Assembly: GCA_949358305.1 (NCBI GenBank)
Contig: OX442315.1
Location: 18,070,427-18,130,426 of the forward strand
Origin: Strigamia acuminata
Taxonomy: Eukaryota; Arthropoda; Chilopoda; Geophilomorpha; Linotaeniidae
Length of the DNA stretch: 60,000 nucleotides
Direction of reading: 5' to 3'
Every line of letters starts with the position of its first letter. Positions within the stretch are counted from its first letter, which is position 1. Positions 17,461 to 49,039 of this stretch are shown one piece after another. The notes below the pieces were generated by a model. The model was not told where the DNA came from and did not search any database. It saw only the letters and a program-made list of their open reading frames with translations. The position numbers and the translations under genes were made by a program.

Positions 17461-17468
17461 ATTTGTTA
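17461..17468. repeat. target-site duplication ATTTGTTA, left of copy 1
   Basis: The matching copy ATTTGTTA is not at the other end of this transposon. It lies at 49032-49039, right of copy 2. See the exchanged-duplication finding. Confidence 0.8.
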
Positions 17469-18505
17469 CGGAGTGGTTAAACCCACAGAAATTCTGTGGA
17501 AATAACCACGTGTTATTTCCACAGAATTTCTGTGGAATTAACACGTGGTTATTTCCACAGAATTTCTGTGTAAATGCCGAGTATCTGTATGTTATTTCCA
17601 CAGAAATTCTATAGAGATGATGAAAAAATTAAAAAAACTTTTATTTACAGTGTAAGCTCTGTAAACCGGACATAGCACCGTCCGGATAGCTGTGTGGACC
17701 GGACAGTTTGGAGGTCCTGATTTGGTCCCAACCTATACCCAGCAATACTAAATCCCCTCTCCCATCCAGACAGCCTTTTAGTTCGGACAACTTTCTGGGA
17801 CCAGTCCCCTGTCCGGTCTACGGAGCTTACACTGTAATGAATTTAATACATTAAGAAATATATCATTGACAAATGCCGTAGCTTTGGCTGCGTAGCACCT
17901 AAAGGATCTGCATACGTGCAGAGCACAACATCCAATAGGGATGTGGTATTGTGAATATCGGTGCAAGAAACCAGTGCCACTAATTGAATTATAATAGCGT
18001 ACTTTGCAGATTATCAGTTTAAAATAATTAAAATAAAAGTTTCTAAAAATTTAACTCTTAATAAATAGATAAAAGTAATTATATTTATTCGGAATTTACA
18101 TAGGCTTTTTGTGGAAATTACAGATATTTCCACAGAAATACCCATGTAAATTCCACAGAAAATCTGCACGTATGCAGATCGTGTAGGTGCTATCTATTAA
18201 ATTCGTTAAATAATTTTTTTTTTTTTTTTTTAATTTTTACATAATCTCTCTAGAATTTCTGTGGAAATAACACACAGATATTTCCACAGAAATTCTGTGG
18301 AAATAATACACAGAAATTCTGTGGAAATAACACAGATATTTCCACAGAAATTCTGTAGAAATAACACACAGAAATTCTGTGGATATAACACACAGATATT
18401 TCCACAGAAATTCTGTGGAAATAACACGTGGTTAATTCCCCAGAAATTCTGTGGAAATAACATGTGGTTATTTCCACAGAATTTCTGTGGAATTAACGCT
18501 TGCCT
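17469..18505. mobile_element. 1.04-kb palindrome-rich hAT-like element, copy 1
   Basis: A 1037-base element nearly identical to 47993-49031. The ends are imperfect inverted repeats: inward from the left CGGAGTGGTTAAACCCACAG and from the right AGGCAAGCGTTAATTCCACA, both running into CCACAGAAATTCTGTGG. That near-palindrome, or half of it, recurs at least four times in the left arm and about nine times in the right arm, so each end can fold into many hairpins. The 8-base duplications suggest a hAT-type mechanism. A 187-base TA-flanked MITE is nested inside. Open frames rich in FPQNFCGN come from the repeats. There is no transposase. Confidence 0.85.
17648..17834. mobile_element. nested Tc1/mariner- or pogo-like MITE (copy 1)
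   Basis: 187 bases beginning CAGTGTAAGCTCTGTAAACC and ending in its imperfect reverse complement (..GGAGCTTACACTG), flanked by TA on both sides. The same insertion at the same place is in the other copy, so it entered before the 1.04-kb element was copied. Confidence 0.75.
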
Positions 18506-18513
18506 AAAATAAA
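18506..18513. repeat. target-site duplication AAAATAAA, right of copy 1
   Basis: This 8-base sequence also lies directly left of transposon copy 2 at 47985-47992. On the coding strand it is TTTATTTT within the dystroglycan codons L-Y-F. Only one copy is present in the intact exon, which supports its being the insertion duplication. Confidence 0.8.
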
Positions 18514-18739
18514 GCCAGGTTGGTAAAACCGAGTGCCCGGCAGTTGCAACCTGTAAAAAAAAACAATATAAAATTTAATAAACCACCGCTATTTTTTTAT
18601 TTATTGATTTTTTTTAAAAAAATAAAAATGATTCCACTCGCCTGATACTTGATTACATGTCCGCGAAACGCGTCACTGGGAATATGATACTGAAATAGCT
18701 GTCCTACAGTGGCATCGTGCAAAACTTGTTGAAACTCAA
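18506..18739 (-). CDS. DAG1: dystroglycan, 5' exon and first part of the split exon
   Basis: Two minus-strand coding blocks of dystroglycan. Exon 18642-18739 encodes HDATVGQLFQYHIPSDAFRG followed by HVIKYQ, the start of the N-terminal cadherin-like domain of alpha-dystroglycan (human counterpart GTAVVGRSFRVTIPTD). It ends CAG|gcgagt, a GC donor. After a 91-base intron the next exon starts at 18550 (GTTGCAACTGCC...) and encodes VATAGHSVLPTWLYF, matching human VSAAGKEALPSWLHW. Translation then runs into the 1.04-kb transposon at 18506. The rest of this exon (KPSTSILEGVPLEDDVGQNY...) lies at 47900-47992, on the wrong side. Exons for the signal peptide and extreme N-terminus were not found. The acceptor of the first exon lies within the first unit of the 62-base array. 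Confidence 0.88.
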
Positions 18740-19340
18740 CTGCAAATTCATAAAATGCATCCCCATTTATCGCCCACCGTGCGAAACTTGTTGAAACTCA
18801 ATTGCAAATTCATAAAATGCATCCGAATTTATCGGTCATCGTGCAAAACTTGTTGAAACTCAACTGCAAATTCATAAAATGCATCCCCATTTATCGCCCA
18901 CCGTGCGAAACTTGTTGAAACTCAATTGCAAATTCATAAAATGCATCCGAATTTATCGCCCACCGTGCAAAACTTGTTGAAACTCAACTGCAAATTCATA
19001 AAATGCATCCGAATTTATCGCCCACCGTGCAAAACTTGTTGAAACTCAACTGCAAATTCATAAAATGCATCCGAATTTATCGCCCACCGTGCAAAACTTG
19101 TTGAAACTCAACTGCAAATTCATAAAATGCATTCGAATTTATCGCCCACCGTGCAAAACTTGTTGAAACTCAACTGCAAATTCATAAAATGCATCCGAAT
19201 TTATCAGCCAAGTTGCAAAACTTGTTGAAACTCAACTGCAAATTCATAAAATGCATCCGAATTTATCAGCCAAGTTGCAAAACTTGTTGAAACTCAACTG
19301 CAAATTTATAAAATGCATCCGAATTTAACGGCCATACGGT
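18711..19340. repeat. 62-base tandem array, homogeneous part
   Basis: About ten units of roughly 62 bases. Each contains AAACTTGTTGAAACTCAACT, then GCAAATTCATAAAATGCATC, then CGAATTTATCGCCCACCGTG or a close variant. The first unit overlaps the first base positions of the dystroglycan exon at 18642-18739. In the minus sense every unit contains ATGAATTTGCAG|TTGAG, the splice acceptor used by that exon. 62 is not a multiple of three, so the array does not encode repeats. Confidence 0.9.
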
Positions 19341-20400
19341 ACAGAACAAGCTTCAATTCATAAAATAAATCCAAAAAGCATCCGAATTTATCGCCTACCG
19401 TGCTAAACTTGTTGGAACTTCACTGCAAATCCACAAAACACATCCGAATTTATCGCCTATCTTACAAAACTACACTGCAAATTCGCAAAACACATCCGAT
19501 TTTATCGCCTACCGTACAAAACTTCACTGCAAATCCACAAAACACATCCGAATTTATCGCCTGCAGTGCAAAACTGATTGAAACTAAACAACAAAGTCTA
19601 AAAACGCATTCGATTTTATCGCACACGATGAAAACTAGCTTCCATCCGTACAATAAATCCAAAAGAGCATCCGAATTAATCGCACACCATGCAAAACTAC
19701 ACTACAAAATCACAAAAAACAAATTAATTTATTGTCTATTGTGCTAAACCTAACCTAACCTATCCTTAATCTAACCTAACTTATCCTTAACCTAACCTAT
19801 TCTTAACCTAACCTATCCTTAACCTAACCTATCCCTAACCTAACCTATCCTCATTTCCGACACTTTTGAGTGTCATTTTCGGACTCAGTAGGCTTTATTT
19901 TGTATGTAACCAAACTTTGGGCCCATTCCGAAGGGGGCCATATTCTAAAGTAACCCCGAAACGAAACAGCAAAACTAATAAATGTATCCGAATTTATCGC
20001 CTACCATGCTAAACTTTACTGCAATATCACAAAACACATACGAAGTTATCGCCCACCGTGCAAAACTTGCTGAAACTACTCAGTAAAACCAAAAAACGCA
20101 TCCGAATCCGAATTTATCGCTCACGCCCAAACACAAGTTGAAATTGCTCCGAATACCTAAAAAACACATCCTATGTGCTACTGAACTGCGAGTCAAATAG
20201 ACGACTAAAACATATCCGAATTCATCGCCCAGCGTGCAAAACTTGTTGAAACTATACTGTGCAAATCCAATAAACGTATCCGAATTTATCGCTCATGATC
20301 CAAACTGGCTTCAATCTGTACAATAAATCCAAAAAACATATTCAATTTATAGCAGGTGTGCAAAACCTGTTGAAACCGAGCATTGATATAACAATACCGT
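19340..20400. repeat. decayed 62-base-type array with CCTAA insert
   Basis: Diverged units of the preceding array (CATCCGAATTTATCGCCTAC, AAAACTTCACTGCAAATCCA and similar) continue with variable spacing to about 20400. They are interrupted by a run of CTAACCTAACCTATCCTTAA units at 19747-19855 and a short non-repeat stretch. Confidence 0.75.
19747..19855. repeat. degenerate CCTAA tandem repeat
   Basis: About 110 bases of CCTAACCTAACCTATCCTTAA-type units, the complement of TTAGG with a longer 20-21 base period imposed. Interstitial. Confidence 0.85.
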
Positions 20401-21650
20401 ATTGCATTGCTTTCATGGGCGATAAATCGGGTTTTTTCCAAAGCATAATCACCACTCACAAGCTCACAAGTCAGAGGAATTTCAACTCCTAATTAATAGC
20501 AACTTGAAAACATAGATGGCGCCACTGTTTTCCAACCGCAAACTGTCTCTGCTCGCTCCTGCCATCTAGAGACGACTGAGCGAAATAATACCGCATTGAA
20601 TACCGCCCAAAAATTGCTTATCATCAAACACAGGCGATTTACGAAAAACAATGTTTTCGTTTTTACTCGCCGAGAGATTAAGGACAATTTTTAGAACGAT
20701 GTTTGAACATTTGGAGCAACTCATTTGAGATTTTATTTTAACTGTATTCAAATTTTTTGTAAATTAAATTTTTGCTCTATTCTCTCGATTTTTGGTTTCG
20801 CCAGCTTGTGTGTTGCGGAATATTTGTACAAATTGTTTGTGTATTCTTCAATTATTATTGAAATATTTTTTGTTCAAAATTAATAAAAGCAAAATCAAAA
20901 TAAACTCGTTATGTTTATATTTTATTCAGCTCTTTAAGCATTTCCATCTTCTTTTTAAAAAATTCTTTGCTTCTTCCCCGCTCTTTTCTTCTGTTTTGTG
21001 AACATGAATTCAACCACGAACATTGTGTTCGTGATTCAATGATCCCGATTCAAATACATTTATTTCACTTCTATGACAGCAATTTATTCAAAAACATTTA
21101 ATTAACCATCAATTTTTAATTTAGCTTTAATCTAAAATTACCCATTGCAGAACTCCACCTTTTATTTTAATGTTGTTCTTTTTTGTTGCTTTTATTTTGT
21201 TATTCTTTTTTGTTGCTATTATTTTGTTATTCTTTTTTGTTGCTTTTATTTTGTTATTCATTTTTCTTGTTCTTATTTTGTTATTTTTCATCATCCTTTT
21301 GTTTTACACATATTTTTGCAAACTGTGGTACAATTTTCTCTAGAATTTTTAAACGAAAATTACACAATCTCAAAACAAGTAAAATATAACAAATAAAATA
21401 AAAAACAGCAAATGCTTCATTGATGACGACATCCGATGCTTCATTGATGACGACATCCACTGCTTCATTGACTGCTTCATTGATGACGACATCCACTGCT
21501 TCATTGACTGCTTCATTGACGACCCTAAATTCCACAAGAACAAAATAAAATAAAATTAAATTAAATTAATAATCAACAATAAAACATTAATTTAAATAAA
21601 TTACCTGTAAAAATCTGCGTAGTGGTAAAATCCTTTTTCCTTCCATTACT
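20400..21650. other. spacer before the main satellite
   Basis: No gene is supported. It includes the motif GATGGCGCCACTG at about 20516, TTTTGTTATTC-type short repeats at 21180-21290 and the 21412-21525 minisatellite. The sequence at 21575-21650 is the right part of the satellite spacer also found at 23860, 26280 and 28300. Confidence 0.5.
21412..21525. repeat. short minisatellite GCTTCATTGATGACGACATC
   Basis: Units of GCTTCATTGA, TGACGACATC and CACT repeat about six times. The minus-strand frame VNEAVDVVINEA is a product of the repeat. Confidence 0.8.
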
Positions 21651-22141
21651 TCCATTTGGATTTACTTCCCATTACTTCCATTTGGGTTTACTTCCCATTA
21701 CTTCCATTTGGGTTTACTTCCCATTACTTCCATTTGGGTTTACTTCCCATTACTTCCATTTGGGTTTACTTCCCATTACTTCCATTTGGGTTTACTTCCC
21801 ATTACTTCCATTTGAGTTTACTTCCCATTACTTCCATTTGGGTTTACTTCCCATTACTTCCATTTGGGTTTACTTCCCATTACTTCCATTTGGGTTTACT
21901 TCCCATTACTTCCATTTGGGTTTACTTCCCATTACTTCCATTTGGGTTTACTTCCCATTACTTCCATTACTTCCATTTGGATTTACTTCCCATTACTTCC
22001 ATTTGGGTTTACTTCCCATTACTTCCATTTGGGTTTACTTCCCATTACTTCCATTTGGGTTTACTTCCCATTACTTCCATTTGGATTTACTTCCCATTAC
22101 TTACATTTGGGTTTACTTCCCATTACTTCCATTTGGGTTTA

Positions 22142-22230
22142 CCGTACTGCCTCATTTAAACGCCCGAGTTCATTCAAACGCCGGGCCCGAATAAACGCCG
22201 GGGGTTCGGCGTTTAAATGAGGCAGTACGG
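22142..22230. mobile_element. 89-base palindromic MITE inside the satellite (type copy)
   Basis: Starts CCGTACTGCCTCATTTAAAC, ends in the reverse complement and is flanked by TA, splitting a satellite unit at GGGTT-TA-CTTCC. The GC-rich centre contains CGCCGGGCCCGAATAAACGC. Further copies are at about 24243-24331, 24360-24448, 26871-26958, 27397-27484 and 28729-28816. All sit at the same position of the satellite unit, so they spread with the array rather than by separate insertions; the doublet at 24.3 kb is a local duplication. Confidence 0.85.
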
Positions 22231-23605
22231 TACTTCCATTACTTCCATTTGGGTTTACTTCCCATTACTTCCATTACTTCCATTTGGGTTTACTTCCCAT
22301 TACTTCCATTACTTCCATTTGGGTTTACTTCCCATTACTTCCATTACTTCCATTTGGGTTTACTTCCCATTACGTCCATTACTTCCATTTGGGTTTACTT
22401 CCCATTACTTCCATTACTTCCATTACTTCCATTTGGGTTTACTTCCCATTACTTCCATTACTTCCATTTGGGTTTACTTCCCATTACTTCCATTACTTCC
22501 ATTTGGGTTTACTTCCCATTACTTCCATTTGGGTTTACTTCCCATTACTTCCATTACTTCCATTTGGGTTTACTTCCCATTACTTCCATTACTTCCATTT
22601 GGGTTTACTTCCCATTACTTCCATTACTTCCATTTGGGTTTACTTCCCATTACTTCCATTACTTCCATTTGGGTTTACTTCCCATTACTTCCATTACTTC
22701 CATTTGGGTTTACTTCCCATTACTTCCATTACTTCCATTTGGGTTTACTTCCCATTACTTCCATTACTTCCATTTGGGTTTACTTCCCATTACTTCCATT
22801 ACTTCCATTTGGGTTTACTTCCCATTACTTCCATTTGGGTTTACTTCCCATTACTTCCATTTGGGTTTACTTCCCATTACTTCCATTACTTCCATTTGGG
22901 TTTACTTCCCATTACTTCCATTTGGGTTTACTTCCCATTACTTCCATTTGGGTTTACTTCCCATTACTTCCATTTGGGTTTACTTCCCATTACTTCCATT
23001 ACTTCCATTTGGGTTTACTTCCCATTACTTCCATTTGGGTTTACTTCCCATTACTTCCATTTGGGTTTACTTCCCATTACTTCCATTTGGGTTTACTTCC
23101 CATTACTTCCATTACTTCCATTTGGGTTTACTTCCCATTACTTCCATTACTTCCATTTGGGTTTACTTCCCATTACTTCCATTACTTCCATTTGGGTTTA
23201 CTTCCCATTACTTCCATTACTTCCATTTGGGTTTACTTCCCATTACTTCCATTTGGGTTTACTTCCCATTACTTCCATTTGGGTTTACTTCCCATTACTT
23301 CCATTTGGGTTTACTTCCCATTACTTCCATTTGGGTTTACTTCCCATTACTTCCATTTGGGTTTACTTCCCATTACTTCCATTTGGGTTTACTTCCCATT
23401 ACTTCCATTTGGGTTTACTTCCCATTACTTCCATTACTTCCATTTGGGTTTACTTCCCATTACTTCCATTACTTCCATTTGGGTTTACTTCCCATTACTT
23501 CCATTACTTCCATTTGGGTTTACTTCCCATTACTTCCATTACTTCCATTTGGGTTTACTTCCCATTACTTCCATTACTTCCATTTGGGTTTACTTCCATT
23601 ACTTC

Positions 23606-24015
23606 CATTCACAGCATGTCCCTCGTTTGAGTTCGATTGCTGATACCCGTGAAAATCACTTGACCGTGCACGCCACACGTGTAGGTTTGGCAAGCGGAAG
23701 CGCCTTTTACTTTAGGACCAACTTCCCTGGAAGCGCCTTTAATCTTAGGACCAACTTCCTCCCAGACTCAATGCCAAAATGTGAAAAACATAATTAGTTG
23801 CAATTCCATTGCTGTCCTAAGAAACAAGAAAAAATAAAATTAATAACCAACAATAAATAAAGCATTAACTTAAATAAATTACCTGTAGAAATCTGCGTAG
23901 TGGTAAAATCCTTTTCCATCAGCAAATGCAAGATAGTTTAACACAAATTAGCATTACTCGAGCTGAGTTCTTTTTGCGCCAATGTGTGAAGCCAAGTGTA
24001 ATCACCTTTTCAACA
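23606..24015. repeat. satellite spacer segment (copy 1 of 4)
   Basis: About 410 bases of non-satellite sequence repeated with over 97 percent apparent identity at 26026-26433 and 28041-28447, partly at 29444-29630, with a right-hand remnant at 21575-21650. It contains a tandem pair of GGAAGCGCCTTT units with TAGGACCAACTTCC. Its minus strand has an open stretch of about 50 codons ending at 23606-23620 (EVGPKIKGAS repeated as EVGPKVKGAS, then CQTYTCGVHGQVIF). No coding role is shown. CTACAGgtaatt on the minus strand resembles a splice donor. Confidence 0.75.
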
Positions 24016-27000
24016 TTACTTCCATTTGGGTTTACTTCCATTACTTCCATTTGGATTTACTTTCCATTACTTCCATTTGGGTTTACTTCCCATTACTTCC
24101 ATTTGGATTTACTTCCCATTACTTCCATTTGGGTTTACTTCCCATTACTTCCATTTGGGTTTACTTCCCATTACTTCCATTTGGATTTACTTCCCATTAC
24201 TTCCATTTGGGTTTACTTCCCATTACTTCCATTTGGGTTTACCATACTGCCTCATTTAAACGCCCGGGTTCATTCAAACGCCGGGCCCGAATAAACGCCG
24301 GGGGTTCAGCGTTTAAATGAGGCAGTATGGTACTTCCATTACTTCCATTTGGGTTTACCATACTGCCTCATTTAAACGCCCGGGTTCATTCAAACGCCGG
24401 GCCCGAATAAACGCCGGGGGTTCAGCGTTTAAATGAGGCAGTATGGTACTTCCATTACTTCCATTTGGGTTTACTTCCCATTACTTCCATTTGGGTTTAC
24501 TTCCATTACTTCCATTTGGGTTTACTTCCATTACTTCCATTTGGGTTTACTTCCCATTACTTCCATTTGGATTTACTTCCCATTACTTCCATTTGGGTTT
24601 ACTTCCCATTACTTCCATTTGGGTTTACTTCCCATTACTTCCATTACTTCCATTTGGGTTTACTTCCCATTACTTCCATTTGGGTTTACTTCCCATTACT
24701 TCCATTACTTCCATTTGGGTTTACTTCCCATTACTTCCATTACTTCCATTTGGGTTTACTTCCCATTACTTCCATTACTTCCATTTGGGTTTACTTCCCA
24801 TTACTTCCATTTGGGTTTACTTCCCATTACTTCCATTTGGGTTTACTTCCCATTACTTCCATTTGGGTTTACTTCCCATTACTTCCATTTGGGTTTACTT
24901 CCCATTACTTCCATTACTTCCATTTGGGTTTACTTCCCATTACTTCCATTACTTCCATTTGGGTTTACTTCCCATTACTTCCATTACTTCCATTTGGGTT
25001 TACTTCCCATTACTTCCATTACTTCCATTTGGGTTTACTTCCCATTACTTCCATTTGGGTTTACTTCCCATTACTTCCATTTGGGTTTACTTCCCATTAC
25101 TTCCATTACTTCCATTTGGGTTTACTTCCCATTACTTCCATTACTTCCATTTGGGTTTACTTCCCATTACTTCCATTACTTTCATTTGGGTTTACTTCCC
25201 ATTACTTCCATTACTTCTATTTGGGTTTACTTCCCATTACTTCCATTACTTCCATTTGGGTTTACTTCCCATTACTTCCATTACTTCCATTTGGGTTTAC
25301 TTCCCATTACTTCCATTACTTCCATTTGGGTTTACTTCCCATTACTTCCATTACTTCCATTTGGGTTTACTTCCCATTACTTCCATTACTTCCATTTGGG
25401 TTTACTTCCCATTACTTTCATTACTTTCATTTGGGTTTACTTCCCATTACTTCCATTACTTCCATTTGGGTTTACTTCCCATTACTTCCATTACTTCCAT
25501 TTGGGTTTACTTCCCATTACTTCCATTACTTCCATTTGGGTTTACTTCCCATTACTTCCATTACTTCCATTTGGGTTTACTTCCCATTACTTCCATTACT
25601 TCCATTTGGGTTTACTTCCCATTACTTCCATTTGGGTTTACTTCCCATTACTTCCATTACTTCCATTTGGGTTTACTTCCCATTACTTCCATTACTTCCA
25701 TTTGGGTTTACTTCCCATTACTTCCATTACTTCCATTTGGGTTTACTTCCCATTACTTCCATTACTTCCATTTGGGTTTACTTCCCATTACTTCCATTAC
25801 TTCCATTTGGGTTTACTTCCCATTACTTCCATTACTTCCATTTGGGTTTACTTCCCATTACTTCCATTCCTTCCATTTGGGTTTACTTCCATTACTTCCA
25901 TTTGGGTTTACTTCCCATTACTTCCATTTGGATTTACTTCCATTACTTCCATTTTGGTTTACTTCCATTACTTCCATTTGGGTTTACTTCCCATTACTTC
26001 CATTTGGGTTTACTTCCATTACTTCCATTCACAGCATGTCCCTCGTTTGAGTTCGATTGCTGATACCCGTGAAAATCACTTGACCGTGCACGCCACACGT
26101 GTAGGTTTGGCAAGCGGAAGCGCCTTTTACTTTAGGACCAACTTCCCTGGAAGCGCCTTTAATCTTAGGACCAACTTCCTCCCAGACTCAATGCCAAAAT
26201 GTGAAAAACATAATTAGTTGCAATTCCATTGCTGTCCTAAGAAACAAGAAAAAATAAAATTAATAACCAACAATAAATAAAGCATTAACTTAAATAAATT
26301 ACCTGTAGAAATCTGCGTAGTGATAAAATCCTTTTTCATCAGCAAATGCAAGCTAGATTAACACAAATTAGCATTACTCGAGCTGAGTTCTTTTTGCGCC
26401 AATGTGTGAAGCCAAGTGTAATCACCTTTTCAACATTACTTCCATTTGGGTTTACTTCCATTACTTCCATTTGGATTTACTTTCCATTACTTCCATTTGG
26501 GTTTACTTCCCATTACTTCCATTTGGATTTACTTCCATTACTTCCATTTGGGTTTACTTCCCATTACTTCCATTTGGGTTTACTTCCATTACTTCCATTT
26601 GGGTTTACTTCCCATTACTTCCATTTGGGTTTACTTCCCATTACTTCCATTTAGGTTTACTTCCCATTACTTCCATTTGGGTTTACTTCCCATTACTTCC
26701 ATTTGGGTTTCCTTCCCATTACTTCCATTTGGGTTTACTTCCCATTACTTCCATTTGGGTTTCCTTCCCATTACTTCCATTTGGGTTTACTTCCCATTAC
26801 TTCCATTTGGATTTACTTCCCATTACTTCCATTTGGGTTTACTTCCCATTACTTCCATTTGGGTTTACCGTACTGCCTCATTTAAACGCCCGGGTTCATT
26901 CAAACGCCGGGCCCGAATAAACGCCGGGGGTTCAGCGTTTAAATGAGGCAGTATGGTACTTCCATTACTTCCATTTGGGTTTACTTCCCATTACTTCCAT

Positions 27001-29443
27001 TTGGGTTTACTTCCATTACTTCCATTTGGGTTTACTTCCATTACTTCCATTTGGGTTTACTTCCCATTACTTCCATTTGGGTTTACTTCCATTACTTCCA
27101 TTTGGGTTTACTTCCCATTACTTCCATTTGGGTTTACTTCCCATTACTTCCATTTGGGTTTACTTCCCATTACTTCCATTTGGGTTTACTTCCATTACTT
27201 CCATTTGGGTTTACTTCCCATTACTTCCATTTGGGTTTACTTCCCATTACTTCCATTTGGGTTTACTTCCCATTATTTCCATTTAAGTTTACTTCCCATT
27301 ACTTCCATTTGGGTTTACTTCCCATTACTTCCATTTGGATTTACTTCCCATTACTTCCATTTGGGTTTACTTCCCATTACTTCCATTTGGGTTTACCGTA
27401 CTGCCTCATTTAAACGCCCGGGTTCATTCAAACGCCGGGCCCGAATAAACGCCGGGGGTTCAGCGTTTAAATGAGGCAGTATGGTACTTCCATTACTTCC
27501 ATTTGGGTTTACTTCCCATTACTTCCATTTGGGTTTACTTCCATTACTTCCATTTGGGTTTACTTCCATTACTTCCATTTGGGTTTACTTCCCATTACTT
27601 CCATTTGGATTTACTTCCCATTACTTCCATTTGGGTTTACTTCCCATTACTTCCATTTGGGTTTACTTCCATTACTTCCATTTGGGTTTACTTCCCATTA
27701 CTTCCATTTGGGTTTACTTCCCATTACTTCCATTTGGGTTTACTTCCATTACTTCCATTTGGGTTTACTTCCCATTACTTCCATTTGGGTTTACTTCCCA
27801 TTACTTCCATTTGGGTTTACTTCCCATTACTTCCATTTGGGTTTACTTCCCATTATTTCCATTTAAGTTTACTTCCCATTACTTCCATTTGGGTTTACTT
27901 CCCACTACTTCCATTTGGCTTTACTTCCCATTACTTCAATTTGGGTTTCCTTCCCATTACTTCCATTTGGGTTTACTTCCCATTACTTCCATTTGGATTT
28001 ACTTCCATTACTTTCATTTTGGTTTACTTCCATTACTTCCATTCACAGCATGTCCCTCGTTTGAGTTCGATTGCTGATACCCGTGAAAATCACTTGACCG
28101 TGCACGCCACACGTGTAAGTTTGGCAAGCGGAAGCGCCTTTTACTTTAGGACCAACTTCCCTGGAAGCGCCTTTAATCTTAGGACCAACTTCCTCCCAGA
28201 CTCAATGCCAAAATGTGAAAAACATAATTAGTTGCAATTCCATTGCTGTCCTAAGAAACAAGAAAAAATAAAATTAATAACCAACAATAAATAAAGCATT
28301 AACTTAAATAAATTACCTGTAGAAATCTGCGTAGTGGTAAAATCCTTTTTCATCAGCAAATGCAAGCTAGTTTAACACAAATTAGCATTACTCGAGCTGA
28401 GTTCTTTTTGCGCCAATGTGTGAAGCCAAGTGTAATCACCTTTTCAACATTACTTCCATTTGGGTTTACTTCCATTACTTCCATTTGGATTTACTTTCCA
28501 TTACTTCCATTTGGGTTTACTTTCCATTACTTCCATTTGGGTTTACTTCCCATTACTTCCATTTGGATTTACTTCCCATTACTTTCATTTGGGTTTACTT
28601 CCATTACTTCCATTTGGGTTTCCTTCCCATTACTTCCATTTAGGTTTACTTCCCATTACTTCCATTTGGATTTACTTCCCATTACTTCCATTTGGGTTTA
28701 CTTCCCATTACTTCCATTTGGGTTTACCGTACTGCCTCATTTAAACGCCCGGGTTCATTCAAACGCCGGGCCCGAATAAACGCCGGGGGTTCAGCGTTTA
28801 AATGAGGCAGTATGGTACTTCCATTACTTCCATTTGGGTTTACTTCCCATTACTTCCATTTGGGTTTACTTCCATTACTTCCATTTGGGTTTACTTCCAT
28901 TACTTCCATTTGGGTTTACTTCCCATTACTTCCATTTGGATTTACTTCCCATTACTTCCATTTGGGTTTACTTCCCATTACTTCCATTTGGGTTTACTTT
29001 CCATTACTTCCATTTGGGTTTACTTCCATTACTTCCATTTGGGTTTACTTCCATTACTTCCATTTGGGTTTACTTCCCATTACTTCCATTTGGGTTTACT
29101 TCCCATTACTTCCATTTGAGTTTACTTCCATTACTTCCATTTGGGTTTACTTCCCATTACTTCCATTTGGGTTTACTTCCATTACTTCCATTTGGGTTTA
29201 CTTCCCATTACTTCCATTTGGGTTTACTTCCCATTACTTCCATTTGGGTTTACTTCCCATTATTTCCATTTGGGTTTACTTCCCATTACTTCCATTTGGA
29301 TTTACTTCCATTACTTCCATTTTGGTTTACTTCCATTACTTCCATTTGGGTTTACTTCCCATTACTTCCATTTTGGTTTACTTCCATTACTTCCATTTGG
29401 GTTTACTTCCCATTACTTCCATTTGGGTTTACTTCCATTACTT

Positions 29444-31366: not shown

Positions 31367-31370
31367 TTAA

Positions 31371-34444: not shown

Positions 34445-34462
34445 CCCCCCCCCCCCCCCACT
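34445..34462. repeat. poly-C tract
   Basis: About 17 consecutive C. Prone to length error in sequencing. Confidence 0.9.
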
Positions 34463-34464
34463 GT

Positions 34465-37680: not shown

Positions 37681-37732
37681 ACTTTAAGACAATTAAATTT
37701 AAATAAATATTAACTAGAAATATTTTACGTAC

Positions 37733-40700
37733 GAATCGTTTTCTTGATATCCTTTTCAAATTACCAACGCCGTGTAGAAGTTGGGTCAAAACTGTGTCCA
37801 CAACTTCACCATTCGAATCGCAAGTAGCCGTACAATTTAGCCAATCATTAACGGACACTTGCTACAAAGAAAAAATGTAAACATAAATTTCAATAATAAT
37901 TTAACAAATAATGATAAAATTACCCAAATGGAGCCGTTATGCGCCGCTAAACATCGCGAGCCATTACCGAAATAGCCCGTATCCACAAACCTTAGATTCG
38001 TTCGCCATAAACTAAAACAAAATGAATATTTGGTTAAATTTTTAATCTTTAAATGTTATTTTAGTCAATTTCCTACTTATAGCATTCCTCCTGCGTTACA
38101 AACACGCCGCACCAATAAGGCGACCAAGCTACACTGAGTAATTTACCGAGTTTTTGTGAATTAATGGGTAAATTTATGTCTTCGGTTGACCAAACATGAA
38201 CCTGACGATACCAACCAACTGTGGCTATATACTTTCCATTACTAAACGGAGCCCACACAACATCTGCAGAATTTTAGATGATATTTAAGCATTGTACACA
38301 TAAATCACGCAACACGAGTAAAACTTACCTTTAACGCAATCAGTATGTGCTCTAAAAATTTTATAAGGACTATAAATTATTTCCGAATTGGAAGATTCAG
38401 GTGACGACTGTTTATGAAGTAAAGGCGACTCTGCAAAAATATTCCAAAGTGCAACGTATCCTAAAATTAAAAAAAAATTAAAAAATTAAAAATAAGTAAA
38501 CTTTTAATTAAAAACAAACAATAAAATACAGACCATTTGTAAATCCGCCAGCAATTCTTGCATGTCCTTTATGTCTTTCCCACGACATAGTTAAACATTG
38601 GCCATCAATTTTTAAATTAACGCTACCCTGCAGCAGCACGGGTTCAGTTTGCAAAATAATGGTCGGTTTGACTCGGCAAATGGGTAAACCAGGTGCTTTG
38701 GAAAGCGAATCGGGAAAAGGTACGCTAAATATGGGTTAAAAAAATAATTTGAATTCAATCTCGTGAATATTAAACTTAGAATTACCTAAAAATGTAAATT
38801 TTTCAATCCGAGCACGCAGCTGCTAACAGCCTTAAACGTGGCAACGTTTTATTGTTATTCTAGAAAAATAAAAAACAGTAAAAATTTATAATCTAAACAT
38901 TAATATTTTGATCTTTTGCTACAATTCTCACATTTTCATCATTCCAGCAACCACTTGGACACCATTCTAATTTTCACACGTCACCAAAATCGTGAGCAAT
39001 ACCCAAAACAAATTTCGATTCCAACGAGGAACTGCAATAAAAGAACATTAATAAACAAATTTTGCTTTAAAATTTATCAAAAACATACTTTGATCGTGTA
39101 TCTCCGACTTGCCAAATCTGAATAAGACCTGGTTTGTTAAGAGTTGAAGAAACCGGAGCTCTGTCTTCCATGGCTCGGTGACTAGACAAAGTCAAGTATT
39201 GGTCGCATACTTTGTTTGCGGGTGTTGGGCACCATGCCATTGCCCAAACTGGACCTCCCATAAATAAGGTACTACGATTGATTTGAGCAGAATCTAACAA
39301 ATTAATCAAATTAATTATTTAGAACAATAGTTTAGAAAATAGAAGGAAAAAAAATAGTTTATAATACCAGATTGTTGTTTGCATGTAAATCGATCTAATT
39401 TAGTCCAAGTAGAAACTGGTTTTTCTTTTTTAACTACATCTACAACTTGAAAAGATATTGAAGTAGTTTCTTCTGGCAGGTACTGTTGGCAATCCCTGCA
39501 AATAAAAGTTCAAAATAATTTCAAATTTTTTCAATTTTTCAAAATTATTTGACTCACAACTCGGAAAGCCTTTCCCAATTACTAACATCTGGAAGCCATT
39601 GATAAAATAAGGAAGTTTCATAATTTCTTTTGTAACTAAAACAAAAACAAATTACAAATAATTAATTTTAACAAACATCATTTTAGTGTCAATAATTACT
39701 AATCGTATGTCCAGTCTGCAGCTTGCGATAATGGTTCAAAATCGTGACCGACCCGAAATGCTGACATGTTGAATTTCCCGTAACCAGATTGACCCTGATC
39801 TAAAAATATGTTACAAATTAAAAAATAATTCAATTCAAATTAAATTTAAACCGTACTTGATGAGCCGTCTTCATTTTCAGAATCTGATTCGCCAATACCG
39901 CCAAAGGAATGCTAAAAATACAAAAAAAATTATATCACCACCAAATTGTAACTTTAGATGCTTAAAAATACCATTTTATCCACATGGGCTTGCATTTGAA
40001 TCTCCCTTCTGCATTTCTTTTTACATATGTTGCATACGTAGCAGAGTGATAAAGTAGAAAACTTGCAGAAAACAAAATGCCTTTTCATATCCTTCAGCGC
40101 AGTGAACTCCTCAAAACACCCCTATAAAAGAATTTTTCAAATTAATTACCCAAAATCTCAACAAAAATCCTGCATAGTCTTACGGTATTATTACAAGTTG
40201 CTTTTCCATTACTCTCAAGCTGTTTTTTCCAATCGGAATAATTCTGGGTCGTGATGCGTAAACCAGGTTTCGTGTACATTTTCTGTAAAAATCAAAAAAT
40301 CCAATATAAAATAAATTTAACAAAATAACAAAAATCCAAATACGTACATATGAATCTGGAAGTTCGTAATTACTGTCCTCAGATTCGCTGGACTCACTTT
40401 TCGCAACCGCATTGCTCCGGTCATCCCTAAACAATTTTCTAGCGATTTCACTAACTTTTTCTCTAGCCCTATAAAAAAAATAATCTTAATATTTCATTAT
40501 TTTTTTTAAAAAAAATAAAATTTTTATGCCTTTTAGCAGCAGATCTTATTTGGGTGCCGTCATCCGCCTCTTGCTTCGGTGGTGGCGGCGGCGGCGTAGT
40601 GGGTGTATGCGATGTCTTCACGTGAGTCCTCATGCTAGCTTCCTTCAGTTTCTTACCGCAAACTTTGCATTCGATCGAAACACTCTGAAACAAAAAATTG

Positions 40701-41060
40701 ATAAAATTGAATATTTAATGTAATAATTAAAACAAATCGTTACCTCCTGGCCACAGATTGTTAAATGATATTGGTAGCCACCTAAAGAAATAAAAGTCTT
40801 CCCACAGCCTTCCCTCAAACAATGAAGTCTCTTCAACACGTGCAGTGTTTTCTTTAACGCTTGAATTTTCTCCTCTTCGCTAATTGCTTGATTCACACCA
40901 TTTTTTCGAGCCTGAATTCGTACGCAAATTAAACGCGACACTTTAAAAATAAGCGATTTTATCCTACCAATCCATTGTGCGTGATCATCGCATGATTATT
41001 AAATTGCGGCTGAGTATTAAATTTTTGTTTGCAGACTCCGCATTCAATTTTATATATAGG
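37733..41060 (-). CDS. TFIIIC subunit GTF3C2-like protein with N-terminal zinc fingers (partial)
   Basis: WD-repeat protein resembling the 110-kDa TFIIIC subunit GTF3C2, part of the factor that recruits RNA polymerase III to tRNA genes. At least twelve exons are seen, for example 40968-41060, 40744-40911, 40530-40684, 40348-40468, then on to 37733. N-terminal half: C2H2-like fingers (CGVCKQKFNTQPQFNNHAMI..H; CLREGCGKTFISLGGYQYHL; CKVCGKKLKEASMRTHVKTS; CNICKKKCRREIQMQAHVDK), a polyproline, and acidic serine runs. C-terminal half: LFMGGPVWAMAWCPTPANKV, PGLIQIWQVGD, WKLEWCPSGCW, LRLLAACSDGKIYIF, VVWAPFSNGKYIATVGWYRQ and LLSVAWSPYWCGVF, the blades of the GTF3C2 propeller. One intron is GC-AG (after 40530). 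No start codon exon was found above 41060, and no 3' exon after 37733, where the gene runs into a duplicated repeat; unspliced readthrough would stop at 37616. Confidence 0.8.
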
Positions 41061-41099
41061 CTAAATCAAGATAAAAAAATTAATGTAAAATAAAATAGT

Positions 41100-41700
41100 A
41101 TTAAAAATTAATTACAAACAAGAAATTTGAGGCAAAATTTATTCACCTAAGTATATGTGACTCGTTCAATTTCAGCAAGTTTCGTAAAAAAAATTAAAAA
41201 TACTGAAATTCATTAAATTATTTCCTAGAATATTGTTAAATTGTAAAAATGTACTTACCAATACATAATTTGAAGCTCAGAAAATCTTATTTCTCATCAA
41301 GGCGGCGTGGATGGCTCCGAATTGAGTTGTTAATAATGGCGATTAGATTTCAGCGTGGTCGGCCTTCTGTACAAAAAAAAAAACGAAATATGCCAAAATT
41401 CGTTAAATTATTCTGCTGTTTTTCGACGATTCTGAAACATTTACAATCTTAAAAATAATTTAAGATAAACAAACTCAAATTCCCACCTCGAAACGATTGG
41501 ATGGCTGAAGATTCATTCTAAATATACAGGCCAATGGTTGCTGCTGTCGTAGCCATCGCGTCAGAACACATTGTACTCTAATTCTTCCCACAATGCAATC
41601 TGATTCTTACTGCGCATGTGCGTGACCTACTCCGAGGCTAGGTTAGGATATTGTTTCCTTGATTTATTATTACGAACCTCAATTTCCATTAGTTATTTAT
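41100..41700. repeat. low-copy dispersed repeat block, right
   Basis: Sequence related to 30840-31240, 32020-32300 and 35480-35600 (GGCAAAATTTATTCACC, TTTGAAGCTCAG, TTGTTAATAATGGCG, CCCACAATGCAATCTGATTC). It lies between the first visible GTF3C2 exon and MON1, where the missing first exon of the former is expected. Confidence 0.65.
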
Positions 41701-41893: not shown

Positions 41894-43951
41894 ATGTATG
41901 ATATGATAACCAGCGAAGAAAACAGTGACTCAATGGGTAAATCACAGAAAGGCATATTTTTACAGATTAGACATCTTAATTTTGTGTTTTTCTTATTCTA
42001 GGTGATGTTTCGGAGACTGTTGCAGTGGAGGGCGATGTGCCGCAAGATTTTGAACCCGGTAAAAGTACACACTGTATGTTGGTGACAACAAATTCTTACG
42101 ATGAAATTCAGGAAGAACTGGAATCCGAACAAACTCCTCAAAACAGTGAAAGACGTCAATCAACTGGAAGCACTACTGCGAAAGAATTCGAGAAAAGCGG
42201 TTCAGCCGACGGTGATCATTCCGAAGAAACAAAAGTATTAATTAATTTAAATTATTGTTTTTATGTAGTCATAACTCATTCATGTTCCGTCACAGTTAGA
42301 AGAAACTGCATCGCAGTTATGTGATTTGTCCGTGGTGTCTAATTTTCCCGAATGCGACGAACCGAGCAACGAAACGTTAAACAGTGACGATGATTACGAA
42401 TATATTCAAAGTAGCGAATGGAGGCATAAGAAAAAGCATATTTTTATCTTAAGTGAAGCTGGCAAACCGATTTATTCACACCACGGGAAAGAAGACAAGT
42501 TGGTCACGCTTATGGGTGTAATTCAAGCATTGATATCTCATATACAAAATAATAATGACACATTAAGAAGTATCATTTCGGGAAAACATAAATTTGTTTT
42601 CTTACAGAGGGGACCGATAATTCTCGTAGCTGTTTCTAAGGTATAATAATCAATTAATTTTATTTTTGGCAGTTGAAGTAAATAATAAATTTTCTTTTCT
42701 TCAGGGTCATGAATCAATTCCACAATTAATGATGCATTTAACTTATTTATACAATCAAATTCTCTGCTTGTTAACCCATAAAACAATTTGTCACATATTT
42801 GAAAATCGTCGTAATTATGATTTAAGACGACTGTTGTCTGGAGTTGAAAAGTTTCTAGATAATATGCTATTTCTTATGGCGCACGAACCGAGCTTTTTGT
42901 TAGGTGCCGTGCGTTGTTTGCCAATGGAGAGCAATATTCGGGAAGTTGTTAGTCAAACTATAGTATCGAGCTGCAGTAAAAATAAAGTACGTATTTTGTT
43001 TATAAAACACGAAATTGAAGATGATTTAATTTTCGGTAAAATAATTATTTACAGGATTTGGTGTTCGCTTTTCTCGTGGCGAAAAATCAATTGATAACTT
43101 TAGTCAGAATGAAAAAATATTTCATTCATCCAGCCGATCTACACGTTCTTTTCAATTTAGTTAATGCTTCAGAGTCGTTCAAAACAGCCGAATCGTGGAT
43201 GCCTATTTGTTTACCAAAATTTGACTCAAAGTAAAAAACGTTTTTTATTTTTCTTGTGTTTGTTATATCTAATCCGTTTTTTTAAAATATTTCAGTGGTT
43301 TTCTTCACGGTCATGTTTCTTATATCGATGACAAATGTGAAGTTTGCCTTTTGTTGCTGTCGGTCGATAGGGATGCATTTTTCCAATTATCTGAATCAAA
43401 AACAAAAATTGTCGAGGTAATTGCTCAACGGAATTATCAAAAGATTTGATTTATTTACACACATTCTTGCAGAAACTGAAGAAAACCAACATCCTTAAAG
43501 CAATTACAGAATCTGTGAACAACGACAAATACGAAATTGGGCAAGTCGGAATAGCAGATTTGCGTCATTTCATTTACAAGTCAAAAAGCACAGCTCAGTA
43601 CACGAGCCCGGAACTCGAAACTCCCTACGTGACGCAGAAAGAACAAGAACGGCTTTTTGGCTTGTATCTCTACCTCCACCAGCGCATACACAGTGCGTCG
43701 AGGCCTCTTAAAATGTTATTTCACGTTGGTGATAAAGAAACGATGCTAGGATGGGTAAATAATAAATTATAATAGTTTCATTTCATGTTTTAATTCTCAT
43801 TTTTCCGCAGGTGACAACAGGTTTTGAGTTATACACCACTTTCGAGCCACTAGTGACCAAATTGGTAGCTATCACTGCAGTTAATAAACTGTTGCGGTGG
43901 ATTAAGAAAGAAGAGGAAAAATTATTTATTCTCATTCCTTCCGTATTCTAA
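41894..43951 (+). CDS. MON1: vacuolar fusion protein MON1
   Basis: MON1 pairs with CCZ1 as the guanine-exchange factor for Rab7 and drives conversion of Rab5 to Rab7 on endosomes and autophagosomes. Eight exons: 41894-41936, 42002-42234, 42296-42640, 42705-42986, 43055-43230, 43296-43416, 43473-43754 and 43811-43951. They sum to 1623 bases (540 residues) with all frames consistent. The N-terminal 130 residues are acidic, Ser/Thr-rich and variable. Family blocks: WRHKKKHIFILSEAGKPIYS, LVTLMGVIQALISHI, KHKFVFLQRGPIILVAVSK, LTYLYNQILCLLT, NYDLRRLLSGVEKFLDNMLF, FLVAKNQLITLVRMKKYFIH, SWMPICLPKF, GFLHGHVSYID and the tail TGFELYTTFEPLVTKLVAIT. An earlier ATG at 41881 hits a stop after six codons, so 41894 is preferred. 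It converges with dystroglycan, whose stop is 970 bases away. Confidence 0.95.
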
Positions 43952-43954
43952 CTT

Positions 43955-44915: not shown

Positions 44916-44920
44916 AACGA

Positions 44921-47900
44921 TTACGGAGGCACATAAGGAGGTGGCATGCGATAAGTGAGTGCATGTTTGGGCCAATGCATACGATTATCCCGATCGGCAG
45001 TGACAGGCGGCGGCGGCTGATACAGCGGCGAACTCTCGGGAGGTTGTGCTTGCTGCTGTTCCAGCGTTGGTGTCTGACGAGAGCGATGGTATGGCGACTT
45101 GGAATGCCTGGCACTGCGCGAGTGATCATGTCCGTGTAAGGGCGGAGTGGAGGGGCTGCTACTGCCCGAAGACGTTCGTGGGTATTCGGGTGGAGGCAAT
45201 GGCGGCTTCTCCTCCTTCATAATCATGGGATGTTTAGCCGAATCCGGTTTCTCTTCCAATTCGTGCGTGAAAATCACCGGCGCGCCTCGCTTCACAAAAG
45301 TGCTGCTGTCTTCCATCGTCATCTTCCCCTTGCGCTTCTTCCTGTACAGAATACACGCGACGATCGCAGCCACGATTAACATGGCCGCAATCACCAGGGC
45401 AGGAACTATGGTCGAAATGTAGATATCGTCATCACTTGTCGCTTGCCGTGGCTTCTCCGTTGTGGTGATGAGCACGCCCGACGTGGGCGTGATGTAATTC
45501 ATGCAAACGCCGTACGGAGTGGCAATTGCCTTCGTCACGTTGAACTCCGGCCTCATCGCCTCCGTCAAATTGCTCGCGACGAGGCCTTCTTCCGTCATCA
45601 AATAAGAGAGCAACGCGATAATAGATTGTTTGGGGCACGCTTTCTGCGAGAGGGTCGTGTTGGTCCACGTGAATATCACCGATCCGCCCCTTCGCAATTC
45701 CAGATGCAAAGATCTGGTATCGCCTTGCTCCTCGTCGAAGAACGTGTCGTCCTTAATTTTGTACTGAAAAAACTGCCCTTCGGTTGCATTGACCATGTCG
45801 ATGGGATTGGGCACTCGCGGTGCTGTGTTTATACGAGTAACGTGGGGAGGCGTCGTGGTCACGTGGTGCTTGCAATGGCTGTACCACCTGATAGAAACGA
45901 GTGGCTGCACGTTTCCAACTCTGAAATCGGGCCCGAGCGCTTGCTCCAGACGAGACCTCTGATGCTCCTTGTCCTTCCTAACGAGGATATTACGCAGTCG
46001 CTCGATCTCCTTGATTGGACAACCGCTCCTCTCTACGAGCGTGTCGTTAGTCCAGGAAAATGTTCCCATGCTGGAAGATAGCACCGTCATGGCGGACTCG
46101 TTTAGACTGCCCACTTCGCCAAAAACCTTGCGCAAACGAGTCAGCAATTGCACGTTTCGATCCAGAATCATCGGAAAGGCTGATTTGTCGTACTCGACTT
46201 CCAACACAAATTCGTGATTCACCGCGAGGTCCATGGCGTGTTGTTCCACGTTAATTTCTATCGCCTCCCGAGCAATTTCGCCGTGTTTATCAACGGCCTC
46301 CAAAAGGAACTCCCAATGATTGATAAAGTTTTTAGCCGGCAGACCATAAAGCATTTGTCGTTTGGCGTCGAACTGCATCCAAAAATCGTCGGCGATTTCT
46401 TTCCCCTCGTCAGTTAGGAAGCGCAGCTCAAGATTGGGCGTGTATTTCTGTTCGCGGTCGTAAAAGGTGTCTTCGGGAATATGGAATTCAAAGTATTTTC
46501 CAGCGACGATAGATCTTTTTTGAATTCGGTTGCGAACAACCGGACCCGTGTTGTGGAACTCGGTCGACTCTAACGTCGACGTTCCTTCCTCCACCGACGG
46601 ATGAACTAAATCTGGAGTAAAAAGAGGCTGGTGTAAAACCGGTGTAGACGTGTGGAAGGGTTTCCAGTCGGTTGGTTCGCTCGGAATTTCGTCGGGAAAA
46701 ACTCGACTCGGTTCCAGAAAGACTGTCGTATGGTGCAAATCGGGTGTGGGCACTGGTGTCTGATAATAACGGCTCTCCTTTCTGTAATAAGTGTTTCTAT
46801 CGTGACCTCGCGAGTGAGGATAAGTCGTCATGTCGTGAACGTGCATGTGACGGCCTCTTGTTTTGGTTCGTTGATGTTGCTCGTGGTGTTGGGGATGATG
46901 AGACGGATACGTGCTGGCTTCGAGGAAGGTCGGCGATGCCATGGTGGGAATGGAGCGCATCGGAGGCTGCACTTCACTCTCGTCAAATGATTCTTCGAAC
47001 CGATTGTCGTCGTCGGTGTCCCAAAAATGAGGAATAGCTGGCTTTGTCGGTATAAGAGCCGGCACAGGAGTTGAATAATCAGACCGGAGCTGGCGCTTAA
47101 CTCTCAACGACTGCGTAAGCAAATGCTTGGTCAAATGCCAGCCGATTACGGGCACTCCGACAACCTGCGATAAAGCACCGTTGCGAGCGTCGGATTCCAA
47201 TTTCGTTATCGCTTCTTCTATGCTGGGAGTTAAAATTTGGCATGCGATTTTCCATACGATAACTGCATTTGCTGTTTGATGTAGTTTGGCATTTCCTGGT
47301 CCGGCTCGAATGGCAGAATCGTCCAGACTATTACGATCGCTTCGTGTTAACACTTGAAGCTCGTCCTGAAATCGAACGCACGTTTTAATCGAGAGCACAT
47401 TTGCAACAATTACAATTACAATTCAATTACCTGAGGTGCGTTTAGATACTCGGATGTTTTCAGTATCAATTCACATCGATTTGAACTGGGCAGCGTTGAT
47501 ATGTTACTGTCGATGCTAATAACTAGCCTCCACGAGGAGTCACTCCTCTGGCAATGATGATTATCTTCGGTCGTCAGTGACCGAGTGGGAATTTTAGATT
47601 CGTGATTAGCGGGTAAAACATCGATAAAAAAGACATCATTGGCAGTGTCATTTGCTAAACGAATTAAACAAACCATTTATTTTTTTTATAATATTAAATA
47701 TTAAAATAACTAAATAATTAACGTCACTTTACTGCGACAAAAACAATTATGGTTTCAAGGAAATAATGAAACAAATTATCACGTGATTTTTACAAGGTTA
47801 AGCTAATCGTAAACTAAAGCCATTAAATTTTATACGAAAAAAATAATTTCAACCACTAGAAACGCAACTAAAAAATATATAATTACGTATATACCGTACC

Positions 47901-47992
47901 TTCTCCATAAGCCACAACTGAAATATAATTTTGGCCTACATCATCTTCTAATGGAACTCCTTCTAAAATAGACGTGGAAGGCTTAAAATAAA
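44921..47992 (-). CDS. DAG1: dystroglycan, main part (alpha C-terminal half and beta subunit)
   Basis: Dystroglycan links laminin and other matrix ligands to dystrophin. Exons: 47900-47992 (second half of the split exon, KPSTSILEGVPLEDDVGQNY), 47431-47654 and 44921-47365 (TAA at 44921). In order: end of the first cadherin-like domain; a region matching human [23 protein letters not shown] (here AGPGNAKLHQTANAVIVWKI); furin-type site RVKR|QLRSD at the place of human RVRR; a Ser/Thr/Pro/His-rich mucin-like stretch; a second cadherin-like domain (GKYFEFHIPEDTFYD ... MQFDAKRQMLYGLP); GTFSWTNDTLVERSGCP; then a shortened second module (GQFFQYKIKDDTFFDEEQ ... VIFTWTNTTLSQKACP); transmembrane helix STIVPALVIAAMLIVAAIVA; juxtamembrane YRKKRKGKMTMEDSSTFVKR; WW ligand PPPEYP; and the dystrophin-binding end MPPPYVPP. 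Upstream it is cut by transposon copy 2. Confidence 0.95.
47985..47992. repeat. target-site duplication AAAATAAA, left of copy 2
   Basis: Partner of 18506-18513. On the coding strand these bases are the TTTATTTT of the dystroglycan exon immediately before AAGCCTTCC. Confidence 0.8.
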
Positions 47993-49031
47993 CGGAGTGG
48001 TTAAACCCACAGAAATTCTGTGGAAATAACCACGTGTTATTTCCACAGAATTTCTGTGGAATTAACACGTGGTTATTTCCACAGAATTTCTGTGTAAATG
48101 CCGAGTATCTGTATGTTATTTCCACAGAAATTCTATAGAGATGATGAAAAAATTAAAAAAACTTTTATTTACAGTGTAAGCTTTGTAAACCGGACATAGC
48201 ACCGTCCGGATAGCTGTGTGGACCGGACAGTTTGGAGGTCCTGATTTGGTCCCAACCTATACCCAGCAATACTAAATCCCCTCTCCCATCCGGACAGCCT
48301 TTTAGTTCGGACAACTTTCTGGGACCAGTCCCCTGTCCGGTCTACGGAGCTTACACTGTAATGAATTTAATACATTAAGAAATATATCATTGACAAATGC
48401 CGTAGCTTTGGCTGCGTAGCACCTAAAGGATCTGCATACGTGCAGAGCACAACATCCAATAGGGATGTGGTATTGTGAATATCGGTGCAAGAAACCAGTG
48501 CCACTAATTGAATTATAATAGCGTACTTTGCAGATTATCAGTTTAAAATAATTAAAATAAAAGTTTCTAAAAATTTAACTCTTAATAAATAGATAAAAGT
48601 AATTATATTTATTCGGAATTTACATAGGCTTTTTGTGGAAATTACAGATATTTCCACAGAAATACCCATGTAAATTCCACAGAAAATCTGCACGTATGCA
48701 GATCGTGTAGGTGCTATCTATTAAATTCGTTAAATAATTTTTTTTTTTATTTTTTAATTTTTACATAATCTCTCTAGAATTTCTGTGGAAATAACACACA
48801 GATATTTCCACAGAAATTCTGTGGAAATAATACACAGAAATTCTGTGGAAATAACACACAGATATTTCCACAGAAATTCTGTAGAAATAACACACAGAAA
48901 TTCTGTGGATATAACACGCAGATATTTCCACAGAAATTCTGTGGAAATAACACGTGGTTAATTCCCCAGAAATTCTGTGGAAATAACATGTGGTTATTTC
49001 CACAGAATTTCTGTGGAATTAACGCTTGCCT
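47993..49031. mobile_element. 1.04-kb palindrome-rich hAT-like element, copy 2
   Basis: 1039 bases, same orientation as copy 1 and differing from it at only a handful of positions (for example GTAAGCTTTG versus GTAAGCTCTG, and CCATCCGGAC versus CCATCCAGAC), so the two are recent relatives. The left end sits inside the dystroglycan exon; the right flank is ATTTGTTA. In the minus sense the element stays in frame with dystroglycan on this side for about 40 codons, and TTATTTCCACAG motifs resemble splice acceptors. The nested MITE is at 48172-48358. Confidence 0.85.
48172..48358. mobile_element. nested TA-flanked MITE (copy 2)
   Basis: Same 187-base insertion at the same internal position as 17648-17834, flanked by TA, with two visible base differences. 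Confidence 0.75.
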
Positions 49032-49039
49032 ATTTGTTA
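49032..49039. repeat. target-site duplication ATTTGTTA, right of copy 2
   Basis: Partner of 17461-17468 left of copy 1. Confidence 0.8.

Follow-up and report, generated by a model that had tools for sequence, protein, structure and literature searches.

A probable composite insertion with switched dystroglycan flanks, bounded by two copies of a putative Mutator-like element, in the genome of Strigamia acuminata

In the geophilomorph Strigamia acuminata a segment of host DNA which contains dystroglycan sequences and satellite DNA is enclosed by two copies of a short transposon, together with which it has probably been moved as one unit. The window, a stretch of 60,000 nucleotides (assembly GCA_949358305.1, contig OX442315.1, here C3; C3:18070427-18130426), contains two copies of this transposon, E, in the same orientation (E1 with 1036 bp and E2 with 1038 bp), which bracket the segment, S. 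The arrangement, E-S-E, is found a second time on contig C4 at a different target, and the locus from which S is derived carries no E. It is best read as a 31.6-kb composite insertion or macrotransposon, which the outer E ends probably moved to two sites. Genome-wide searches covered the 237.5-Mb assembly with its 157 contigs. The counts of the whole-genome DNA searches are lower bounds for repeats; for the unique gene block three candidates were obtained in both searches, and all of them were scored.

The duplications flanking the two elements have a length of 9 bp and are exchanged, TATTTGTTA forming the outer pair and TAAAATAAA the inner pair (Table 1). At the base composition of the window chance identity of a given pair of 9-mers has p ~8e-6. 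An initial annotation made from the window had described this exchange correctly; it had seen eight of the nine bases. Its statement that a dystroglycan exon is split by the transposon copies with the halves in the wrong order can be read directly: the frame breaks off with VATAGHSVLPTWLYF at E1 and continues with KPSTSILEGVPLEDDVGQNY at E2, and the native exon is intact. As it had also pointed out, closing S into a circle reconstitutes the exon, and joining the outer flanks gives an empty site.

Table 1. Position of the composite unit and its parts in the window.
Feature	Position	Strand	Remarks
Outer 9-bp target duplication TATTTGTTA, left	17460..17468	.	identical 9-mer at 49031-49039
E1, putative non-autonomous Mutator-like element, ends CGGAGTGGTTAA...TTAACGCTTGCC, ~100-bp inverted repeats of tandem palindromic units	17469..18504	+	
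191-bp repeat nested in E1	17646..17836	+	in 4/4 composite E copies, in 0/4 other copies printed (one truncated)
Inner 9-bp duplication TAAAATAAA, first copy	18505..18513	.	single occurrence in native exon
Right flank of the original site of E: part of dystroglycan exon, intron, part of preceding exon	18505..18713	-	0 substitutions in 209 aligned bases, 4 gap bases against native C4:10035835-10036043
Fusion point: native C4:10036043 (dystroglycan) joined to 62-bp tandem repeat	18713..18714	.	
G, satellite-rich block (62-bp, 26-bp, 21-bp arrays)	18714..37688	+	roughly collinear with block left of native gene
X, 3.39-kb genomic fragment, GTF3C2-like gene with introns	37689..41077	-	97.4% to C4:12.107-12.110 Mb
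Right remainder of block G, including edge to genes	41078..41640	+	edge common to native locus
MON1 exons (longin domains)	41980..43772	+	Pfam, PDB sequences
Large dystroglycan exon, 825-aa open frame	44921..47398	-	Pfam, PDB sequences
Stretch with dystroglycan exon part continuing the frame broken at E1	47883..47992	-	
Inner 9-bp duplication TAAAATAAA, second copy	47984..47992	.	matches 18505-18513
E2, second element copy	47993..49030	+	
Outer 9-bp target duplication TATTTGTTA, right	49031..49039	.	matches 17460-17468

The native dystroglycan locus is located at C4:10.011-10.036 Mb. Its exon is uninterrupted and contains TAAAATAAA once; it reads VATAGHSVLPTWLYFKPSTSILEGVPLEDDVGQNY, the corresponding protein of Strigamia maritima reads VATAGHSALPTWLYFKTSTSILEGVPLEDDVGQNY, and no E end occurs within the 90 kb fetched around the exon. 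Genome-wide, the 3' dystroglycan flank matches three places, namely both E-S-E units and C4:10,035,366-10,035,860, and the MON1-dystroglycan region is found at the same three. As the gene block occurs at these places only, a second dystroglycan paralogue with its end to the left of 17.4 kb, which the initial annotation had considered, was rejected. It had also named a dystroglycan half in normal order elsewhere as an observation that would speak against its reading. Such a locus does exist on C4, but it has no E and represents a donor-type locus and no sign of error. Native C4:10,011,008-10,035,843 corresponds to 18.7 kb-47,992 of the window, and native 10,035,832-10,036,043 to 18,502-18,713, from which it follows that 209 bp formerly to the right of the insertion point of E are now fused to the block formerly to its left. 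S is hence the native order switched: at 18713/18714 two points which at the native locus are separated by about 25 kb have become joined head to tail. The partners share at most about 1 bp at this fusion, as judged by eye, and the junction occurs at two places genome-wide, both without mismatch, with none further within three mismatches. The dystroglycan piece next to E1 had been drawn up to 18739; the native sequence stops at 18713, where the 62-bp tandem repeat begins, and the piece consists of two partial exons and an intron. S and the native locus have the same edge between satellite block and genes, which indicates that S was derived from this locus. For the same reason the idea that S carried genes into a different satellite block was rejected.

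Outside the window the arrangement was detected by the elements themselves. At least four near-full-length matches to E with its flanks exist genome-wide (40 of the 340 candidates scored), two in the window and two, 30.4 kb apart, at C4:12.837 and 12.868 Mb. The region between the latter, C4:12.837-12.868 Mb, is a second complete E-S-E on the opposite strand, with the same inner duplication TAAAATAAA and an outer duplication of its own, AATATACAT. An uninterrupted unit of the repeat which served as target, at C4:12836412 and about 600 bp from this insertion, contains AATATACAT once, so the outer duplication on C4 is real. This second unit also led to dropping the view that the C4 target was a coding exon with a splice site, the target being a repeat. 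Between the copies of S on C3 and C4, substitutions are found at 75 of 17,353 sites (0.43%, in eight blocks outside the main tandem arrays). These results bear on an assembly error, which the initial annotation had left as one option and by which two ordinary E insertions would have been joined through repeats. The region does offer material for such an event, namely a 7.8-kb satellite and two 1-kb repeats which are almost identical. Against it stand the same arrangement at C4:12.84 Mb with different outer duplications, 0.43% divergence and its own 6-kb insertion, the native exon without E, and a fusion junction at 18713/18714 which does not involve E. Two copies at different targets make a misassembly very unlikely, and this explanation can practically be discarded.

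The insertion of about 6 kb in the C4 copy of S (C4:12838514-12844552; window site 47518-47524) is found neither in the window copy nor at the native locus. It has the ends GTGAGTTGT/ACAACTTAC beside a short repeat AATAACT and is another transposon. Two stretches of S in the window, 31371-32004 and 36002-37132, have no counterpart in the C4 copy.

As to the nature of E, searches for its ends with up to three mismatches yielded 19 left and 17 right ends, which were paired by coordinates to 11 short elements, four of them in the two E-S-E units and the other seven with lengths of 45 to 796 bp. Three complete solitary copies are flanked by 9-bp duplications, AAAAATATT and ATGACTTAT being perfect and TTACTGTAA/TTATTGTAA containing one mismatch; a fourth printed copy is truncated (L008). 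The nested 191-bp repeat is absent from all four copies printed from outside E-S-E, and the coordinates of the remaining paired copies leave no room for it. The left 12-base terminus CGGAGTGGTTAA is enriched, with 40 matches in the genome compared to 11 for its reversed control. An element of 2,358 bp at C3:10514936-10517293 (L043) carries CGGAGTGGTTAA at both ends in opposite orientation and an open frame of 506 amino acids with a MULE domain (PF10551, E 3.4e-18) and related transposase domains. Pieces of it are about 74-97% similar to E, and it is the sole element with E-type ends found among the MULE frames compared. Its left end, its 9-bp duplications and the pieces it has in common with a transposase-bearing element are the grounds for regarding E as a non-autonomous Mutator-like element (MULE). 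The duplications at the two outer sites, the inner site and the three solitary copies, all of 9 bp, are within the range of 8-10 bp of MULEs. L043 is a candidate helper for E.

On this basis the favoured course of events would start, in one copy of the locus, with insertion of the Mutator-like E into a dystroglycan exon, by which TAAAATAAA would have been duplicated. E and the DNA flanking it would then have been copied in such a way that about 25-29 kb of the left flank were joined end to end with 209 bp of the right flank and a full E was left at both outer edges. A transposase could pair the left end of E1 with the right end of E2, which are suitably oriented, and the whole unit would be inserted at two places with a 9-bp duplication made at each. 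Two direct copies of E with one target duplication outside are what a transposase taking the outer ends of both would leave, and two different targets with perfect duplications support such an activity. For the origin of the fusion, re-replication during alternative transposition is slightly favoured over a multimeric extrachromosomal circle carrying E and over a tandem duplication, all three routes yielding alike products. The complete account, by which an animal Mutator-like element would have formed a switched-flank composite by re-replication in alternative transposition and a 31.6-kb unit with host genes and satellite DNA would then have spread as a giant transposon, is proposed tentatively, as conceivable though short of probable.

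A different route to both sites would be homologous recombination between E copies already resident and a circle of S with one E, by which the circle would have been integrated; the second site would have been formed likewise or by later movement of E-S-E. Recombination of a circle between element copies had been the other option of the initial annotation, and it produces the same exchanged duplications; in the SVA/lcr16a precedent the outer duplications are described as coming from the resident element and the inner ones from the element of the circle (PMC9132208). The elements there are reciprocally chimeric, whereas no chimerism is seen among the four E copies here, which offer 8 variable columns only. 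A resident E already equipped with the nested 191-bp repeat would furthermore be needed at one or both sites, and none is among the four other copies printed. As no E chimeras were seen and the nested repeat is present in all four composite copies and in none of the other printed ones, transposition of the unit is ranked first and recombination, an unlikely though serious alternative, second; movement of E-S-E as one unit would also account more simply for both sites. Even less probable as a separate explanation, although its chances are counted within the favoured one as well, is a chromosomal tandem duplication giving rise to S, followed by unequal exchange which brought E into both units and by transposition of E-S-E as a unit. 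It would create the same junction and the same product, and unequal exchange is favoured by the long tandem repeats within S; yet no tandem copy is found at the native locus, and the junction is present only inside the two E-S-E insertions. A Helitron with read-through was set aside, since the data are accounted for by the switched order together with the 9-bp duplications at E; Helitron ends were not searched for.

Several observations weigh against the favoured account. The maize composite insertions to which it is likened begin from two nearby reversed elements, and nothing here shows a second E. The E sequences, which vary in only 8 columns, are insufficient to establish transposition rather than recombination. 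The donor state, E within the dystroglycan exon, would have to be supposed for a locus that is now without E. The satellite block of S matches its native counterpart in 25 of 46 pieces of 500 bp (window 18505-41504), with 0-15%, mostly 3-9%, substitutions and many indels; X has no match in the native block; and the gene block differs by 1.13% between S and the native locus. Concerning the assignment of E, its right-end 12-mer is not enriched (32 genome matches, 42 for the reversed control) and is therefore no family marker by itself. Both ends of L043 are of the left type of E, from which the right terminus of E, GGCAAGCGTTAA, differs, and no matching target duplication was found at this copy of L043. 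The evidence base as a whole is one assembly. In addition, the 21-bp array of block G is inverted at the native locus, and both copies of S have in common a deletion of 112 codons in dystroglycan, codons which are present in the native protein and in that of Strigamia maritima. The divergent satellite block, the added X, the difference in the gene block and this deletion imply that the reference allele, although closely related to the donor, was not itself the direct donor.

The relative ages of the copies can be estimated from substitutions. In the gene block C3 and C4 differ at 15 of 6,243 sites, native and C3 at 71 of 6,260, and native and C4 at 71 of 6,208. Codon differences in the large dystroglycan exon, counted as synonymous/other, are 17/5 for native-C3, 17/7 for native-C4 and 0/4 for C3-C4, a pattern with small counts which fits a donor allele that would have kept its function until a short time before the spread, and copies unconstrained since. 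The four composite E copies differ by 6 substitutions and one 2-bp indel, every change being private to one copy. From the rate in S (75/17,353) about 9 substitutions would be predicted among them, so that the doubling of E and both insertions appear to be close in time and about equally old.

Of the three genes named in the initial annotation, dystroglycan and MON1 are backed by Pfam and PDB sequences. The dystroglycan frame gave a single match in a protein search, to Strigamia maritima with 78% identity over 76% of the query. The identity of GTF3C2, which is present as a fragment only, rests on one PDB sequence (8cli_C, E 8.5e-11), and three frames of X had no match in NCBIfam; the sequence at C4:12.107-12.110 Mb is regarded as the source of X. 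The C4 copy of S has an extra 31-bp gap in the large dystroglycan exon.

Satellite-rich blocks of the kind found in S are widespread. Pieces related to the blocks with 62-bp, 26-bp and 21-bp arrays (window 18714-37688; C4:10011000-10029200; C4:13666000-13676000) are dispersed at more than 30 places. These blocks seem to acquire gene fragments, as the window copy contains the GTF3C2 fragment and the native block a different insert. A segment of about 28-35 kb, T, with pieces of the same satellite block occurs at four places (C6:8713387-8742518, C8:9490878-9519411, C3:6539354-6574308 and C8 from ~8994131; L044-L054), the copies being 98.6-99.9% alike in 2-kb samples. Its right end is the Mutator-type terminus CGGAGTGGTTAA at three of the four places with differing outside flanks, and its left edge is the same in two and cut elsewhere in two. 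T was not counted as a sister case of E-S-E, the left edge not being an E-type end and no target duplication having been found. Elsewhere in the window long repetitive frames rich in glycine, tyrosine and lysine, perhaps encoding secreted structural proteins, lie on the minus strand at 51505-53544, 57022-58290 and ~15975-16178. Interstitial arrays of GTTAG/AACCT units, which resemble the arthropod telomere unit, are located at 6934-7020 and 19747-19851. Scans of the window with Rfam (gathering scores) and for tRNAs gave no matches.

The closest parallel in structure is found in maize, where alternative transposition of Ac/Ds yields composite insertions and macrotransposons (PMC4270019, PMC9910405). 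The composite insertions are described with switched fused flanks, transposon termini and target duplications, the fusion having 0-9 bp shared or being formed by homologous recombination (PMC4270019). E-S-E resembles them in the transposon ends at both edges, the outer target duplication and the switched flanks fused at one new junction; the maize composites as reported have sizes of 10-28 kb and form a unit able to move again. Unlike E-S-E, according to these accounts Ac/Ds makes 8-bp duplications and starts from two reversed elements, whereas here a Mutator-like element with 9-bp duplications is found in an arthropod, as a standing structure with two full direct copies of E. VANDAL elements are members of the Mutator superfamily. 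In Arabidopsis somatic rearrangements near two head-to-head VANDAL21 elements have been attributed to alternative transposition (PMC12312487).

For the insertion of an lcr16a circle mediated by SVA in hominines recombination with a resident element was proposed because the flanking elements are reciprocal chimeras (PMC9132208). E-S-E has in common with the case so described the exchanged inner and outer duplications, the gene interrupted by the element and the permuted gene order; it differs in the E copies, among which no reciprocal chimeras are seen. In cattle, segmental duplications are reportedly formed via circular DNA. Those of human attributed to circular DNA exhibit microhomologies and short indels at their breakpoints (PMC7450558). 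The A-B to B-A order relative to an intact donor locus and a junction with little or no homology are similar in E-S-E, and its transposon ends with target duplications are a difference from the human duplications as described.

Among Mutator/Foldback elements Tm1 of nematodes (PMC3169594) and Muta1 of Aedes (PMC5225508) resemble E, by the features reported, in duplications of 8-9 bp (8-10 in Tm1) and long inverted repeats with tandem units. Tm1 additionally resembles E in its asymmetric outer motifs, and it has a transposase of 496 amino acids, to be compared with the frame of 506 amino acids found here. In contrast to E-S-E both are described as single elements of about 1-3 kb and not as large composites. 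Ising's TE of Drosophila, with large segments between foldback elements (PMC6431247), is similar in that host DNA between copies of a foldback-type element is moved as a unit; it comprises hundreds of kb and is described without a switched-flank structure. A survey of 100 animal reference genomes reports no gene-carrying Mutator element among inserts of 100 to 5,000 bp (10,000 tried in humans); for populations of flies it does describe amplification of a gene through the element FB4 (PMC8277862). With the insert sizes given there, units of the size of E-S-E would have been missed. The literature searched, which included few subscription papers, yielded no description of an animal composite with switched flanks and a Mutator-like element at its edges. 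The kind of rearrangement is thus known from maize Ac and the human SVA circle, and its form with an animal MULE appears to be new. It offers a view at the level of base pairs of one way in which, in nature, a small DNA transposon would take host genes and satellite DNA amounting to tens of kilobases from their context, permute and reinsert them while the donor gene stays intact, and exchanged inner and outer duplications combined with one fusion junction form a signature which can be searched for in other assemblies.

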